Assembly (NCBI GenBank): GCA_029938175.1 | Contig: JAPYON010000014.1 | Coordinates: forward strand, 1-34,709 | Length of the DNA: 34,709 nucleotides | Source: Paracoccaceae bacterium | GTDB lineage: Bacteria > Pseudomonadota > Alphaproteobacteria > Rhodobacterales > Rhodobacteraceae | Direction of reading: 5' to 3' | In this document: positions 21,659 through 27,678 of the stretch, one piece after another | Position numbering within the stretch: the stretch's first letter is position 1 | Layout of the letters: each line of letters starts with the position of its first letter | The notes under the pieces: model-generated | The model's input: the letters and a program-made list of their open reading frames with translations, nothing else | The model's database searches: none | What the model was told of the DNA's origin: nothing | Program-made: the position numbers and the translations under genes

Positions 21659-22777
21659 ATGCTTATCGGTTGCCCAGCAGAAATCAAAAATCAAGAATAT
21701 CGTGTCGGCATCACTCCTGCCGCCGCTCAGGAAGCCGTTGCAAACGGCCATGATGTTATCATTCAACAGGGTGCCGGCGCAGGCGCCGGCTTTCCGGACG
21801 AGGAATACCTATCCATTGGCGCACGTGTCGTTGACACAGCTGAAGAAATTTTCTTTACGGCCAAAATGGTCGTAAAGGTCAAAGAACCTCAGCCGGTCGA
21901 GCGCAAGCAGCTTCGCGAAAACCAGATCCTGTTCACATATCTGCACCTAGCACCAGACGCGCCACAAACCGCAGACCTTCTGGAAAGCGGCATAACTGCC
22001 ATCGCCTACGAAACTGTAACCGACCGTATGGGCGGCCTACCCCTTCTGGCCCCGATGTCCGAAGTGGCTGGCCGGTTGGCCCCCCAAGTGGGAAGCTGGA
22101 CATTGCAAAAAGCCAACGGTGGACGTGGTGTTTTGATGGGTGGCGTACCAGGCATATCCCCTGCCAAAGTCGCTGTCATCGGCGGCGGTGTGGTTGGAAC
22201 ACATGCTGCAAAAATTGCGGCAGGCATGGGTGCAGATGTCACCGTTCTAGACATGTCACTTCCGCGCATGCGCTACTTAGACGATGTATATGGCGGTGTT
22301 TTCAAAACCCGTTACGCTTCCAAAGGCAATACTGCTGAGCTGGTAGCGGAGTCGGATATGGTCATCGGCGCTGTCTTGATCCCAGGTGCTTCCGCCCCGA
22401 AACTGGTCTCGCGCGCGATGCTTTCAACAATGAAACCGGGCGCGGCCATCGTTGATGTGGCCATTGACCAAGGTGGTTGTTTTGAGACATCTCATGCAAC
22501 CACGCATGACGACCCGATCTACGAAGTTGACGGCATCATGCACTATTGCGTCGCCAATATGCCGGGCGCCGTTGCGCGTACATCTACCATAGCGCTTGGC
22601 AATGCGACCATGCCGTTCATGATCGCTCTAGCTAACAAAGGCTGGAAAGATTCTTGCGCCGACGACGCTCACCTGATGAGGGGTCTCAACACGCACGCCG
22701 GAAAACTAACATATGCAGCTGTTGGTGAGGCACTTGGTCTGGATTACATCTCGACCGACGCAGCACTAAAATTATAA
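21659..22777 (+). CDS. ald: alanine dehydrogenase
   Basis: NAD-dependent oxidative deamination of L-alanine to pyruvate and ammonia (reversible). The 372-aa product has the AlaDH substrate residues Arg15 (YRVGITP), Lys75 (VKVKEP) and His96 (TYLHLAPD). The NAD loop is GGGVVG (175-180) with Asp198 at the end of the second strand; DVAIDQGGCFETS follows. AGAGGT precedes the ATG; an in-frame ATG 20 codons upstream has no family match. Divergent Lrp-type regulator upstream and a strong terminator downstream mark it as a single-gene unit. Confidence 0.97.
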   Translation: MLIGCPAEIKNQEYRVGITPAAAQEAVANGHDVIIQQGAGAGAGFPDEEYLSIGARVVDTAEEIFFTAKMVVKVKEPQPVERKQLRENQILFTYLHLAPDAPQTADLLESGITAIAYETVTDRMGGLPLLAPMSEVAGRLAPQVGSWTLQKANGGRGVLMGGVPGISPAKVAVIGGGVVGTHAAKIAAGMGADVTVLDMSLPRMRYLDDVYGGVFKTRYASKGNTAELVAESDMVIGAVLIPGASAPKLVSRAMLSTMKPGAAIVDVAIDQGGCFETSHATTHDDPIYEVDGIMHYCVANMPGAVARTSTIALGNATMPFMIALANKGWKDSCADDAHLMRGLNTHAGKLTYAAVGEALGLDYISTDAALKL

Positions 22778-22783
22778 GAATAC

Positions 22784-22814
22784 GGCCCGCCAAAGAAATT
22801 CGGCGGGCCTTTTC
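22784..22814 (+). terminator. rho-independent terminator after ald
   Basis: Perfect 8-bp GC stem GGCCCGCC/GGCGGGCC with a 10-nt loop, followed immediately by TTTTC, 6 nt after the ald stop. Confidence 0.92.
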
Positions 22815-23257
22815 ATAGCTCTGACAATTGTCCGGACCTCAAGATCCAAGCCATAGCTGCACACTGCGAGCGCGGACGCGCGCGACAGGAATTTCAGTTC
22901 TATCAATAAGCACCAGCGTCTTGGCTCCATACTTACCATCAATGCTTTCGCAAAAAATCGCGGCAGGCCAATCCAATAGAATATTTTAGTGGCAAATTGG
23001 AAATAGATAAACAGGTTGGGGATTCTTGGAAAAGTAATATTGGCGAACTAGTTATTGCAACGTATAGACCGATTAACGTCATAATACAGAAAGACCAGAA
23101 AACAACGGTAAATCGCTAAGTCATATCAGAGCGATAACCACGCGTATCTAGTATCCAAGTTCTTATTGCTAGAAACGATCATTTTCATCGTCTTCTGGGA
23201 CATCCTAGAACACGAACCTCCGATGAGCCGTTTTTCTACCTGAAAAATTCGTAGACA
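22815..23257. other. 443-bp gap without a convincing gene; possible gene remnant on minus strand
   Basis: No family is recognisable. Two short minus-strand frames overlap end to start. One runs from ATG at 23082 to TGA at 22939 (47 codons, with a hydrophobic IMTLIGLYVAIT segment). The other is open from 22985 to the TGA at 22839 and contains KTLVLIDRTEIPVARVRA. Neither has a ribosome-binding site. They could be a frameshifted relic of one membrane protein, or chance. I see no tRNA or obvious structured RNA. Confidence 0.3.
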
Positions 23258-23707
23258 CTAGTTAGGCAACTTGCCCGAAAGAATATACACAAGCATCTGC
23301 ACAACCTGTGTAGGGTGCTCGACCACGGCCAGCGCCGCCGCATCCACCTCTTTCAACGGGTGTTGATGCTCCGGACCGTGCAATACGATCAATGATTTAC
23401 CGAGCGCCGAAGCCATGCCCGCTTCAAACGCCGCATTCCACTGCTTATACTTGTCCCCGAAACGTACGACGACGATATCAGCGTCCTCGATCCCCTTACG
23501 TGTGCGGATCGCGTTCAACTGTGCACCCTTTCGGTCATGCCAGAACTTGTCCTCCTCGGAACCCATAATCGCCACGCCACAGTCGTCCGACGCGTCGTGA
23601 TCCGTAACAGGTGCCGAGAACGTAACGTCGAGGCTTTCCGCCCCTGTCATAATTTCCTCTCGCCAGTTGGTGTGGATTTCACCCGACAGGTAAACTTTAA
23701 GTGTCAT
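23258..23707 (-). CDS. YtoQ family protein
   Basis: A 149-aa protein matching the YtoQ family, with a nucleoside 2-deoxyribosyltransferase-like fold (MTLKVYLSGEIHTNWREEI, MGSEEDKFWHDRKGAQLNAIRTR, DADIVVVRFGDKYKQWNAAFEAG). Its function is unknown; the fold suggests a nucleotide-sugar or nucleoside-type ligand (inference). The start lies 3 nt after the pheT stop, with its AGAGGA ribosome-binding site inside pheT, so it is cotranslated as the last gene of the pheST operon. Confidence 0.85.
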   Translation of the reverse strand: MTLKVYLSGEIHTNWREEIMTGAESLDVTFSAPVTDHDASDDCGVAIMGSEEDKFWHDRKGAQLNAIRTRKGIEDADIVVVRFGDKYKQWNAAFEAGMASALGKSLIVLHGPEHQHPLKEVDAAALAVVEHPTQVVQMLVYILSGKLPN

Positions 23708-23710
23708 AAC

Positions 23711-26116
23711 TTATCCTCTCAAAACTCCGCCAGTGGCTTTTGAAACCTTGGCAATCACTTGCTCGGAGATAGCGTCGATCTCTTTGTCAGTCAGGGTACC
23801 GGCGGTTGGTTGAATGCGAACCGAAATGGCTATTGATTTTTTACCGTCATCCATGTGGAACACGTCAAACAGATTTACCACATCGATCAGTTTCTTATGT
23901 GCCCCGTTTGCGGCCTTCAGCAAGGCTTCTACCTCGACATCGGAATTAACAACAAAGGCAAAATCTCGCTCGACCGCTTGGAAATCCGAGAGCACAAGCG
24001 CAGGTCGCGTCTTGGTCTTGGCTTTCGGGAACGGCGCATTCTCTAGAAATAACGTGAATGCCACAGCCGGGCCTTTGACGTCCATCTCGGCCAGCACCTT
24101 CGGATGCATCTCACCAAAAACCGCCAGCGGGTTCTTCGGCCCCAAGCTTAACACTGCAGAGCGTCCCGGATGGAACCAATCAGGTGCATTGCGCATCACC
24201 ATCAAGCGATCCACAGGCGCACCTAGGGCAGCCAGCGCAGCCTCAGCATCGGCCTTGGCGTCGTGCAAATCAACGGAGCGCGCTGTCCCGTAAGCATTGC
24301 GCGGCGCGGTCGTGCCGACACGGAGGCCACATGCCAAAGCTTTCTGATCCTCGGGTTCACCACCTTCAAACCCTTGTCCGATCTCAAACAACGCCAAATC
24401 CGCAAAGCCGCGCGCCTGATTTTTCGCCGCTGCTTGCAGCAGGCTTGGCAATAACGTCGGGCGCATGTGGCTCATTTCCGAGGAAATCGGATTGCCGAGC
24501 ATCACCCCGTCAGAGCCGCCACCAAACAGTTCCGCCGACGCCTTATCAATAAAACTGTAGGTCACACATTCATTATAGCCCAGCGTCGCAATCGTGCGGC
24601 GAACCATGCCTTGGCGCTTCTGCATTGGCGTCAGCACTGCTCTCATCACACCAGTTGAAGGGCGTGGCATTGGCACACCAACCAACTTGGTTAACGATGC
24701 AACCCGTGCGATTTCCTCAATCAGGTCGGCCTCACCTTGCACGTCGGGCCGCCAGCTTGGTACGGCGACTTGCAAATCATCGCCAACCACAAACCCGAGA
24801 TCTGTCAGTATGCGCATCTGTTCATCTTGCGCGATATCCATACCCACCAGCGAGATCACCCGCGCAGGGTCCAGCGTGTAAGACCGGCTCGTATCAGGTG
24901 TTTTACCAGCAACCACAACATTCGAGGCTTCGCCGCCACAGATATCAAGGATCATCTGCGTTGCCAGTTCCAAACCTTCGCCCGTAAACGCCGGATCAAC
25001 ACCACGTTCAAATCTATATCGCGCATCGGAGTTAATTTTCAGTTTACGACCCGCCATCGCAATCGTGATCGGGTCCCAATAGGCGCTCTCGACAAACACA
25101 TCGACGGTATCCTCGGTACAACCCGACGCCACGCCGCCCATAATACCCGCGATGCTTTCAACGCCGTTGTCATCACTGATCACCATCATTCCGGCATCCA
25201 GCGTGTAGTCTTTGTCGTCCAGCGCCGTCAGACTTTCGCCGCCTTTGACGAAATGCACGCGCAGGTCACCGTTCACCTTGGCCACATCGAAAACGTGCAG
25301 CGGGCGGTTGCGGTCGTAGGTCATGAAGTTGGTGATATCGACCAGCGCCGAGATCGGACGCAATCCAATCGCGCGGATTTGATCTTGCAGCCACTTCGGG
25401 CTCGGGCCGTTTTGCACGCCTTTGATCGTGCGGCCATAAAATACCGGACAACCCTTTTCCAGAACGCCGGCGTCGATGCTGACGTTGACCGGGGACTCAA
25501 ACGCACCTTCAACGGTTTCGATAGGCGCAGGTTTCAACGTTCCCAGACCCCGGGCGGCCAGATCACGGGCAATGCCACGAATGCCCAGCGCATCAGGGCG
25601 GTTGGGGGTGATCGCTATGTCGATCACAGGGTCATTACGGTTCGTGTAATCAATGAACCGCGCGCCCAGCGGAGCGTCTGAAGGCAAATCGATAATACCG
25701 TCATGCTCGTCGGAAACCATCAGCTCGCGTTCGGAACACAGCATGCCGTGGCTCTCGACGTCGCGAATAACGCCGGCCTTCAGGGTCATGTCGATGCCGG
25801 GCACATACGAGCCAACGGGGGCAAAAACGCCAACCAAGCCGGTCCGCGCGTTCGGGGCACCACAAACCACCTGAACCTCGACAATTTTACCATCGGGGCC
25901 GTCGGGATAGGTTTCCACGCGGCACAGACGCAAGCGGTCGGCGTTGGGGTGCTGGACAGCCTCAATCACGCGGCAAAGGCGAAACACGCCGAGCGTGTCG
26001 GCAGGATCCTCGACCCCCTCAACTTCCAGACCGAGGTCGGTCAGGGCATAAGTAATCTCGTCGAGCGTAGCCTCGGTATCGAGGTGGGTTTTAAGCCAGG
26101 AGAGTGTGAATTTCAT
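23711..26116 (-). CDS. pheT: phenylalanyl-tRNA synthetase beta subunit
   Basis: The 801-aa beta subunit of the heterotetrameric synthetase. Domains in order: N-terminal core (MKFTLSWLKTHL), an EMAP/OB tRNA-binding domain (about 39-148; CRVIEAVQHPNADRLRLCRV, VVCGAPN), the B3/4 editing domain (about 205-380) and B5 (about 400-470; YTLDPARVISLVGMD). The catalytic-like fold follows, then the C-terminal FDX-ACB anticodon domain (about 706-800; VERDFAFVVNSDVEVEALLKA). Length is normal for the family. AGGAAC precedes the start. Unusually, a small gene lies between it and pheS. Confidence 0.97.
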   Translation of the reverse strand: MKFTLSWLKTHLDTEATLDEITYALTDLGLEVEGVEDPADTLGVFRLCRVIEAVQHPNADRLRLCRVETYPDGPDGKIVEVQVVCGAPNARTGLVGVFAPVGSYVPGIDMTLKAGVIRDVESHGMLCSERELMVSDEHDGIIDLPSDAPLGARFIDYTNRNDPVIDIAITPNRPDALGIRGIARDLAARGLGTLKPAPIETVEGAFESPVNVSIDAGVLEKGCPVFYGRTIKGVQNGPSPKWLQDQIRAIGLRPISALVDITNFMTYDRNRPLHVFDVAKVNGDLRVHFVKGGESLTALDDKDYTLDAGMMVISDDNGVESIAGIMGGVASGCTEDTVDVFVESAYWDPITIAMAGRKLKINSDARYRFERGVDPAFTGEGLELATQMILDICGGEASNVVVAGKTPDTSRSYTLDPARVISLVGMDIAQDEQMRILTDLGFVVGDDLQVAVPSWRPDVQGEADLIEEIARVASLTKLVGVPMPRPSTGVMRAVLTPMQKRQGMVRRTIATLGYNECVTYSFIDKASAELFGGGSDGVMLGNPISSEMSHMRPTLLPSLLQAAAKNQARGFADLALFEIGQGFEGGEPEDQKALACGLRVGTTAPRNAYGTARSVDLHDAKADAEAALAALGAPVDRLMVMRNAPDWFHPGRSAVLSLGPKNPLAVFGEMHPKVLAEMDVKGPAVAFTLFLENAPFPKAKTKTRPALVLSDFQAVERDFAFVVNSDVEVEALLKAANGAHKKLIDVVNLFDVFHMDDGKKSIAISVRIQPTAGTLTDKEIDAISEQVIAKVSKATGGVLRG

Positions 26117-26136
26117 TTTAAGTTCCTAACTAATCG

Positions 26137-26478
26137 TTATAGCTTTGAAATCATGTCAAATACTATACTTACAACATGTCCAAACGAGTCATAGGGAAAC
26201 TGTTCACAGCTCTCTGCAACTATCTTTCTGTAGGCAATTTCCCCTGAAGAAATGTAGCTCATGAGCTGCAAATTATTGGTTGCAATGGCGCCCCCTGTAA
26301 AATACCCCTCCATGAACTCGAGATACGGTGAAAGCTTGGCCACTTGTCCAGAATCTATCGCAGTTAGATAATCCGAGCATAATTTGAACGATGCGACACT
26401 TTTAGCCTGTGTTTGAGATGCCCCAAGGGCAACTGCGGCAACCGACAACATACTTGACGTTTTTTTTGCCTCAATCAC
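26137..26478 (-). CDS. small exported protein inserted between pheS and pheT (HdeA/Rap1a-like pattern)
   Basis: A 113-aa protein. It begins with a GTG that overlaps the pheS stop (GTGA), and its stop lies 20 nt before pheT. The N-terminus looks like a signal peptide: Lys-Lys, then [12 protein letters not shown], then TQAKS. The mature part has one early Cys (CSDYLTAI), a [12 protein letters not shown] segment and one late Cys ([10 protein letters not shown]). The order Cys-helix-YLxxxxGY-Cys-P is reminiscent of HdeA/HdeB acid chaperones and Rap1a/Tai-type small periplasmic proteins with one disulfide. This is a pattern match, not a firm assignment. Its base composition is visibly AT-richer than its neighbours (about 42% GC over 26161-26220 by hand count). 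An internal ATG at codon 10 is an alternative start but would lose the charged N-region. Confidence 0.7.
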
Positions 26479-27557
26479 CGCGAAATACCCCCATGCATAT
26501 TAGGCATGTCCAAGCTCGCGAACCCGTAGTGGCGCAGCCAGCGCAGGTCGCTGTCAAAGAATGCGCGCAAATCGGGGATGCCGTATTTCAGCATCGCCAG
26601 ACGGTCGATGCCCATACCGAAGGCAAAGCCTTGATACTCGGACGGGTCAACGCCTGCGGCCGTGAGAACTTTCGGATGCACCATGCCGGAGCCGAGGATC
26701 TCCATCCAGTCGTCGCCCTCGCCGATTTTCAGCTGGCCGCCTGCCCATGAACATTTAATATCCACCTCGGCGCTTGGTTCCGTGAACGGGAAGTGGGAGG
26801 CGCGGAATTTCAATTCCACATTGTCCACCTCGAAAAACGCACGGCAGAATTCTTCCAGCGTCCACTTAAGGTTCGCCATGGAAATATCCTTATCGATCGC
26901 CAAACCCTCAACCTGATGGAACATCGGGGTGTGCGTCTGATCGTAATCCGAACGATAAACTCGACCCGGCGCGATGATGCGCGTGGGCACGCCGTGTTTC
27001 TCCATATGGCGGATTTGCACGGGGCTGGTGTGGGTGCGCAGCACGTGGGGCGGACGGTTGTCGCCCTTATCGCGATACATGTAAAACGTGTCGAATTCCT
27101 GCCGCGCGGGGTGCTCGGGCGGGATATTCAGGGCGTCGAAGTTGTAAAAATCGTTCTCGATCTGCGGACCCTCGGCGACGGAATAGCCAAGGTCTGCGAA
27201 AATCGCGATGATCTCTTCGGTGACTTGGCTGATCGGATGGATCGTACCAGCCTGCGAGGGTCGCGCGGGTTGCGTCACGTCCAGCCACTCGCTGCGAAGA
27301 CGTTCTTCAAGCGCGGAATCAGCCAGCGAGGCCTTACGCGCCATAATCGCCGAATTGATCTCGTTCTTCAGCGCGTTCAGCTTAGGTCCAGTGACTTGCC
27401 GTTCCTCGGGCGTCATTTTGCCAAGCTCGCGCATTTTCAGGCTAACCTCGCCCTTTTTGCCCACGGCAGCCAAACGCACCGTTTCAATCGCGCTTTCGTC
27501 GACCGCATCGGCGATCTCGCCCAGATACTTGGTCTTGAGTTTCTGAATTCCGTCCAT
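26475..27557 (-). CDS. pheS: phenylalanyl-tRNA synthetase alpha subunit
   Basis: Catalytic subunit charging tRNA-Phe, 360 aa. It has an N-terminal coiled coil (about 1-85), then class II motifs: the [11 protein letters not shown] entry, motif 2 [17 protein letters not shown] and motif 3 [20 protein letters not shown]. The ISPVQ-type [11 protein letters not shown] phenylalanine/ATP segment is present. GAGGGTG precedes the ATG. A terminator of the rpmI-rplT unit lies upstream, so pheS probably has its own promoter. Its stop overlaps the small exported gene by 4 nt. Confidence 0.97.
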
Positions 27558-27625
27558 GTCACCCTCGTTATTCTCGTTTGGATTTGGTTACGGCGCGGGG
27601 GGCAAAAATGCAAGCTTCCCACATG

Positions 27626-27656
27626 CAAAAAGCCCCGATGTTTCCACCGAGGCTTT
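27626..27656 (-). terminator. rho-independent terminator after rplT
   Basis: On the minus strand an 11-bp stem (AAGCCTCGGTG / CATCGGGGCTT, with G-T pairs) closes a GAAA tetraloop and runs into TTTG. It sits 22 nt after the rplT stop. Confidence 0.85.
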
Positions 27657-27678
27657 CCGTTTAACCTGTGAACCGACT

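Follow-up and report, generated by a model that had tools for sequence, protein, structure and literature searches.

What is a small gene of foreign appearance doing between pheS and pheT, two genes that are expected to stand side by side? The question is raised by a 34,709-nucleotide stretch of Paracoccaceae DNA (the window), in which a 113-aa open reading frame (ORF) with a GTG start, probably encoding a small exported protein, lies at 26137–26478 on the reverse strand with pheS and pheT as its immediate neighbours. The analysis described here makes it likely that this gene now occupies a hypervariable slot at the stop codon of pheS, in an interval that has been opened in Rhodobacteraceae.

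The 113-aa gene and its junctions

The slot lies between two arms, both on the reverse strand like the ORF itself. The upstream arm is pheS (26475–27557; Pfam PF01409, E = 1.1e-99) and the downstream arm is pheT (23711–26116; PF03483, E = 2e-64). The GTG start of the ORF overlaps the pheS TGA stop (26475–26477) in a GTGA junction at 26475–26478 on the reverse strand, its G being the last base of the final arginine codon of pheS, CGG. At its other end, the ORF stops 20 bp before the pheT start codon (26114–26116), which leaves the AGGAA ribosome-binding-like site of pheT (26123–26127, reverse strand) outside it. The same GTGA junction with pheS is found in congeners G149, G154, and G152.

The composition of the ORF differs from that of both arms. 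Its GC content is 0.437, against 0.575 for pheS and 0.566 for pheT, and its third-position GC content is 0.43, against 0.72 and 0.63, respectively. The translation begins with an N-terminus that, by eye, is signal-peptide-like (MIEAKKTSS / [11 protein letters not shown] / SQTQA-K; residues 1 to 25, 26404–26478, reverse strand), with a likely cut after TQA-25. Two cysteines, Cys34 (26377–26379, reverse strand) and Cys91 (26206–26208, reverse strand), are possible disulfide partners. The ORF is thus confirmed as it had been observed in the initial annotation: it lies between pheS and pheT, it is joined to pheS by GTGA, it is poorer in GC than pheS, and it carries two cysteines behind a signal-peptide-like start.

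Another AT-rich stretch of the window, at 22780–23250 (down to 39% GC), holds no ORF of at least 80 aa. It lies between a 392-aa ORF ending at 22777 and a YtoQ-family gene at 23258–23707.

Relatives and fold of the 113-aa protein

Searches with the 113-aa protein returned no relative in the 12 other genomes of the genus (best E = 0.33). In the 148 other genomes of the family they gave nothing but a marginal match of 59 residues (E = 0.003), which falls within a 316-codon frame in G130 (locus L002) and was taken as chance. None of the 259 other same-strand ORFs from 157 occupied pheS–pheT intervals matched it (phmmer, E ≤ 10), nor did any entry in the genome, viral, plasmid, and phage collections. 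NCBIfam gave nothing, PHROGs gave one unnamed family at E = 0.34, and PADLOC gave no match at E ≤ 0.1. In a PDB sequence search, a viral surface protein was matched twice at chance level (best E = 0.022). Because the protein has no relatives, the 113-aa gene itself cannot be shown to move.

The nature of the frame and that of its product can be weighed together. It is very improbable that the frame is no gene at all and has stayed open by chance in an AT-rich spacer. Such a frame would have no convincing homologue in any search, as is the case here, and the codon positions of the ORF indeed lack the high GC1 and GC3 of the neighbouring genes; against this, a frame of at least 113 codons from the same start arose in just 10 of 20,000 shuffles of the interval, and the ORF spans the distance from the pheS stop to just short of the ribosome-binding-like site of pheT, much like the coupled genes of the nearest species. 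The initial annotation had likened the product to HdeA or Rap1a, which would make it a periplasmic helical protein with one disulfide, either a small acid chaperone or an effector-immunity protein. We judge this assignment unlikely. The protein shares with HdeA and Rap1a its small size, exported look, two cysteines, and helical model, and a GY pair adds to the resemblance. The single-sequence model is all-helical but of low confidence (pLDDT 54.7), and the Foldseek search with it ranked chains of HdeA from E. coli seventh and tenth, with E values of 3.1 and 3.9, which are without significance; unrelated helical proteins did equally well or better there too. In a structure comparison with the same low-confidence model, HdeA chains reached Z scores of 4.3 and 4.1, among unrelated helical proteins that scored equal or higher. 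By sequence, no method used gave a match. Neither HdeA (PF06411) nor Rap1a (PF18602) matches the protein in Pfam at E ≤ 10, and neither profile matches the window's own genome at E ≤ 0.01. The hhalign probabilities were 0.5% for the HdeA alignment and 0.4% for the Rap1a alignment, although these tests are weak, as the former holds seven sequences (two from E. coli and five that match the family weakly, not all of them above the Pfam cut-off) and the latter nine. Membership in either family gains no support from these tests, and what remains is an unreliable helical resemblance. We favour a small helical protein that is exported and has a single disulfide, the export being read by eye from the N-terminus. 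Its maximum mean hydropathy over a 19-residue stretch is 0.88, below the threshold of 1.6 applied to slot proteins below.

An interval opened in Rhodobacteraceae

The pheS–pheT gap was measured in 149 Rhodobacteraceae genomes, one per genus. Among the 142 in which pheS was found, 33 were set aside: 27 with the two genes on different contigs, 5 with the genes on opposite strands, and 1 without pheT. The 109 remaining same-contig, same-strand pairs, the window included, have a median gap of 726 bp; 7 have a gap of at most 60 bp and 90 have a gap of more than 200 bp. These pairs include two in which pheT lies far upstream and two in which it lies far downstream (13.7 and 389 kb). A survey of 115 genomes across the class, in which 9 of 108 were set aside, gave 99 measurable pairs outside the family. 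Here 89 of the 99 gaps are at most 60 bp, 28 of these being overlaps, and 5 exceed 200 bp. The difference between the family and the other alphaproteobacterial families is pronounced (Fisher p = 4e-38). With short gaps in 89/99 pairs outside the family and 7/109 within it, adjacency of pheS and pheT is the rule in the class and Rhodobacteraceae are the exception, so that the premise of near-universal adjacency fails in the very family to which the window belongs. For the same reason, a single unusual intrusion is the wrong picture of the locus: the interval is wider than 200 bp in most of the family, and sister species differ in what it holds.

In several family genomes (G009, G014, G053, G080, G101, G111, G121, G126, G138, and G182), pheS and pheT are distant or on opposite strands; even their linkage has therefore been lost there.

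Control junctions behave in different ways. The rpmI–rplT spacing is 12 to 21 bp in all 60 loci in which both genes were found (of the 80 loci L132–L211). For sucC–sucD, judged from the spacing of Ligase_CoA domains, 80 genomes (G000–G079) were searched; among the matches listed, 50 have both domains on one contig and 26 of these 50 are opened by more than 200 bp. This suggests that operons are interrupted more widely in the family. The rplT–pheS spacing ranges from 95 to 4717 bp across 63 loci of the same L132–L211 set. This upstream interval, so variable in the family, is short in the window (27558–27678).

Occupants in the nearest species

Among 13 genomes of the genus, pheS was found in 11 and the junction lies on one contig in 8, the window included. 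The cargo names used here are Pfam matches for ASCH and DUF2513, readings by eye for GNAT, cupin, and pilin, and hydropathy for "membrane". The eight junctions hold the 113-aa ORF (window, G000), a 209-aa membrane type (G149), a 91-aa membrane protein with a GNAT-like gene (G160), a 190-aa membrane protein (G154), a DUF2513 protein (G152), an ASCH protein with further ORFs (G156), an opposite-strand pilin-like ORF (G157), and nothing at all (G158), where pheS and pheT overlap as ATGA.

In a tree of the flanks, the window is sister to G149 (support 85/70) and forms with its four nearest species a clade (100/100) with path lengths of 0.07 to 0.2. These five genomes carry five unlinked first genes, each in a different cluster. 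The sisters G152 and G154, at a flank distance of 0.07, have wholly different occupants, and the sisters G157 and G158 differ in that one holds the opposite-strand ORF and the other is empty. Similarity between congeners ends at the pheS TGA and at the pheT ATG, and the six intervals compared share nothing beyond matches of 10 to 12 nt. Conserved flanks around unrelated content in related genomes are the pattern by which core-genome transfer hotspots are recognised, and this pattern is present here. G000, G149, G154, and G152 share the first 60 nt of pheT letter for letter, while other 60-nt bins of pheT in these pairs range from 0.55 to 0.98. An identical start of pheT would fit crossing-over there, but would equally fit constraint on the translation start.

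Genes that start on the pheS stop

The full set comprises 157 distinct occupied intervals of at least 100 bp, in which same-strand ORFs of at least 60 aa were clustered. The pheS TGA shares bases with a start codon in 67 of these intervals, and 51 of the 67 ORFs run for at least 60 aa, against 6.7 expected from shuffles. Such a start codon joins the base that ends the last pheS codon to the TG of the stop, so that in an arginine-ending pheS the synonymous codons CGG and CGA set GTG and ATG, respectively. GC content is below that of the flanks in 44 of the 51 stop-coupled ORFs, and 28 of the 51 contain a 19-residue stretch with a mean hydropathy of at least 1.6; the 113-aa protein is not among these. 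By BLAST at 1e-4, the 51 ORFs separate into 26 unlinked types, of which 11 have at least two members. At the downstream end, 34 same-strand ORFs have a stop that overlaps the pheT ATG, and 11 ORFs overlap both pheS and pheT. In 17 of the 157 intervals there is no same-strand ORF of 60 aa. Short opposite-strand ORFs resembling Flp/TadE pilins, as judged by eye, recur in the gaps (L010, L012, L020, and others).

These data bear on further points of the initial annotation. The picture of a gene that looks foreign, turns over fast, and sits where it can draw on the expression of an essential operon is supported by the composition of the 113-aa gene and by its having no relatives in the genus and family searches. 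The converse, a vertically inherited gene of normal composition, does not describe the 113-aa gene, although the open interval itself is general in the clade.

Cargo families bound to the site

Some cargo families are found mostly or only at the pheS–pheT site. DUF2513 has 14 matches in the 149 family genomes, 12 of them over the Pfam cut-off, and 9 of the 14 (7 of the 12) lie directly after pheS. Those over the cut-off in this position are in G001, G010, G011, G012, G067, G116, and G143, and those under it are in G021 and G111. A further copy, in G069, lies 1.3 kb upstream of pheT, where pheS is broken on the contig, and four lie elsewhere. DUF2513 also occurs in nine phage records, at less than 60% identity.

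The 209-aa type seen in the window's sister has six matches in the 149 genomes, all six just after pheS, with no copy elsewhere. As the profile (A3) was built from five slot occupants, four of the six matches are its own members, and the independent finds are G091 and G053. Since pheT is on the opposite strand in G053 and G111, the cargo goes with pheS and not with pheT. A membrane family of 200 to 240 aa with the motif SxGAHEVLLGxLKKVE (L108, L086, L088, L037, and L006) was seen in the 149 genomes only just after pheS, and it bears a weak resemblance to Pycsar membrane effectors.

The 209-aa type has no Pfam match below 0.1 and no match in viral contigs or phages, and the 190-aa type has none in plasmids. 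PADLOC returned weak matches alone for ten slot proteins: PycTM (9.9e-5), GajA (0.003), and a 1TM effector (0.0098). The PycTM matches are those of the 209-aa type, with the best E value taken over five members, three of which match one model at E ≤ 1. A Pfam scan of ten cargo proteins found no mobile-element family above cut-off.

Possible exchange, and stability, within the interval

One clear discordance, in a comparison at species level, may reflect exchange between lineages. In the 190-aa family, the Ruegeria protein at L203 is 57% identical to that of the distant L135 and 53% identical to that of G154, but 33% identical to that of its congener L201. The corresponding pheS proteins show the reverse, at 97% identity for L201 and L203 and 78% for L135 and L203.

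The interval is not equally changeable throughout its length. The first same-strand ORF belongs to one cluster in 0 of 21 pairs of the window's congeners, 1 of 45 Ruegeria pairs, and 7 of 78 Aliiroseovarius pairs, the last by way of the ASCH type. Yet every one of the 45 Ruegeria pairs has some ORF cluster of the interval in common, with an abhydrolase type in 10 of 10 species and a cupin-like type in 7, and the ASCH type is present in 29 of the 157 intervals, including 7 of 13 in Aliiroseovarius. Because first ORFs are rarely shared while downstream residents are steadier, the hypervariable part is the position next to the pheS stop and not the whole interval. In the Ruegeria loci L173–L206, the abhydrolase-type gene is kept in the interval and the gene that precedes it differs between species.

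Origin of the pattern

Stable downstream residents in some genera and the frequent opening of sucC–sucD indicate that the pheS–pheT interval is not wholly special, and nor is the habit of opening. Much of the slot pattern may be general operon loosening, because sucC–sucD is also opened (26/50 among the matches listed) and rplT–pheS is so variable (95 to 4717 bp in 63 loci). By this account, many core operons of the family gained intergenic genes, pheS–pheT is just one of them, and no special exchange mechanism is involved. We regard it as possible but somewhat unlikely as the full explanation, since random insertion does not give cargo tied to one site (9 of 14 for DUF2513 and 6 of 6 for the 209-aa type), pheS–pheT is open more often (90/109) than sucC–sucD among the matches listed, and rpmI–rplT is untouched in 60 of 60 loci. 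The slot is still set apart by cargo found mostly or only there. That last feature would also be produced by an ancient gene, and the presence of two to four same-strand ORFs in many intervals, together with downstream types that recur (the abhydrolase type throughout the ten Ruegeria species and ASCH in 29/157 intervals), lends itself to an ancestral interval of several genes from which each species retained another. Such differential loss is nonetheless quite improbable: the 26 unlinked types on the pheS stop are too many to have been present jointly, G152 and G154 differ completely at a flank distance of 0.07, and the similarity of the L203 and L135 alleles runs counter to the pheS identities.

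A proposed mechanism

We return to the favoured reading, a hypervariable slot at the pheS stop. Homologous recombination in the pheS and pheT arms, which are conserved, would swap whole alleles of cargo with no dedicated integrase, and most pieces appear small enough to be carried by a gene transfer agent (GTA) or taken up as DNA. The 113-aa gene may be transcribed with pheS and translated by stop-restart at the GTGA junction. Its product would be exported by Sec and mature to a helical protein of about 88 residues with one disulfide between Cys34 and Cys91. As to its role, our best guess, made from the company it keeps and held tentatively, is that it serves the envelope in an accessory way and under pressure to diversify, for instance by excluding phages or by giving immunity against the effector of a rival. 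A bolder proposal, which we consider rather unlikely in its entirety, is that the 3' end of pheS in Rhodobacteraceae serves as a locus at which alleles of single-gene effectors are exchanged, most of them membrane or envelope proteins of anti-phage defence (or immunity). The last arginine codon and the TGA would supply the start of each drop-in gene and thereby instant expression from an essential operon, and recombination in the arms would carry alleles from genus to genus, probably as fragments of a size that a GTA can pack.

Relation to known systems

The closest known system is the core defense hotspot cDHS1 of P. aeruginosa (PMC10250203). That locus carries variable foreign genes at one core position, with a GC content below that of the host and with conserved flanks; it spans 1 to 224 kb, is bounded by merR and a DUF4011 gene, and lies near ihfA and a proline tRNA, with pheS and pheT among its neighbours. 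Known defence systems and mobile elements are aboard, and its authors suggest that transfer may proceed by phage transduction and by recombination in the flanking regions (PMC10250203). The slot described here shares with it the variable foreign genes, lower GC content, conserved flanks, and proximity to pheS and pheT. It differs in lying inside the pheS–pheT pair, in its small occupants that begin on the pheS stop, and in its cargo: ten slot proteins are without a Pfam mobile-element match above cut-off, whereas cDHS1 carries mobile elements (PMC10250203). A possible vehicle for exchange is RcGTA of Rhodobacter capsulatus, a member of the same bacterial family, whose fragments of about 4.5 kb integrate by allelic replacement (PMC9690577). 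Fragments of this size are big enough for most slot intervals with their arms.

The slot proteins themselves offer a further point of comparison. The membrane effectors of Pycsar systems (PycTM in PADLOC) resemble the 209-aa slot family of sister genome G149 through the weak matches noted above, but the 113-aa gene has no such match. In open full text, outside which most subscription papers lie, no report of insertions between pheS and pheT in Rhodobacteraceae was found, nor was the term DUF2513.

Known gene-exchange hotspots are mostly situated between operons, at tRNAs or integrase sites. Here the putative exchange site lies inside the operon of a two-subunit enzyme, with the stop codon of an essential gene as the point of entry and with small-protein families that are partly bound to the site. 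If this is true, reading the slot across genomes would be a direct route to candidates for effector genes, and the influence of gene transfer agents on accessory content could be put to the test.
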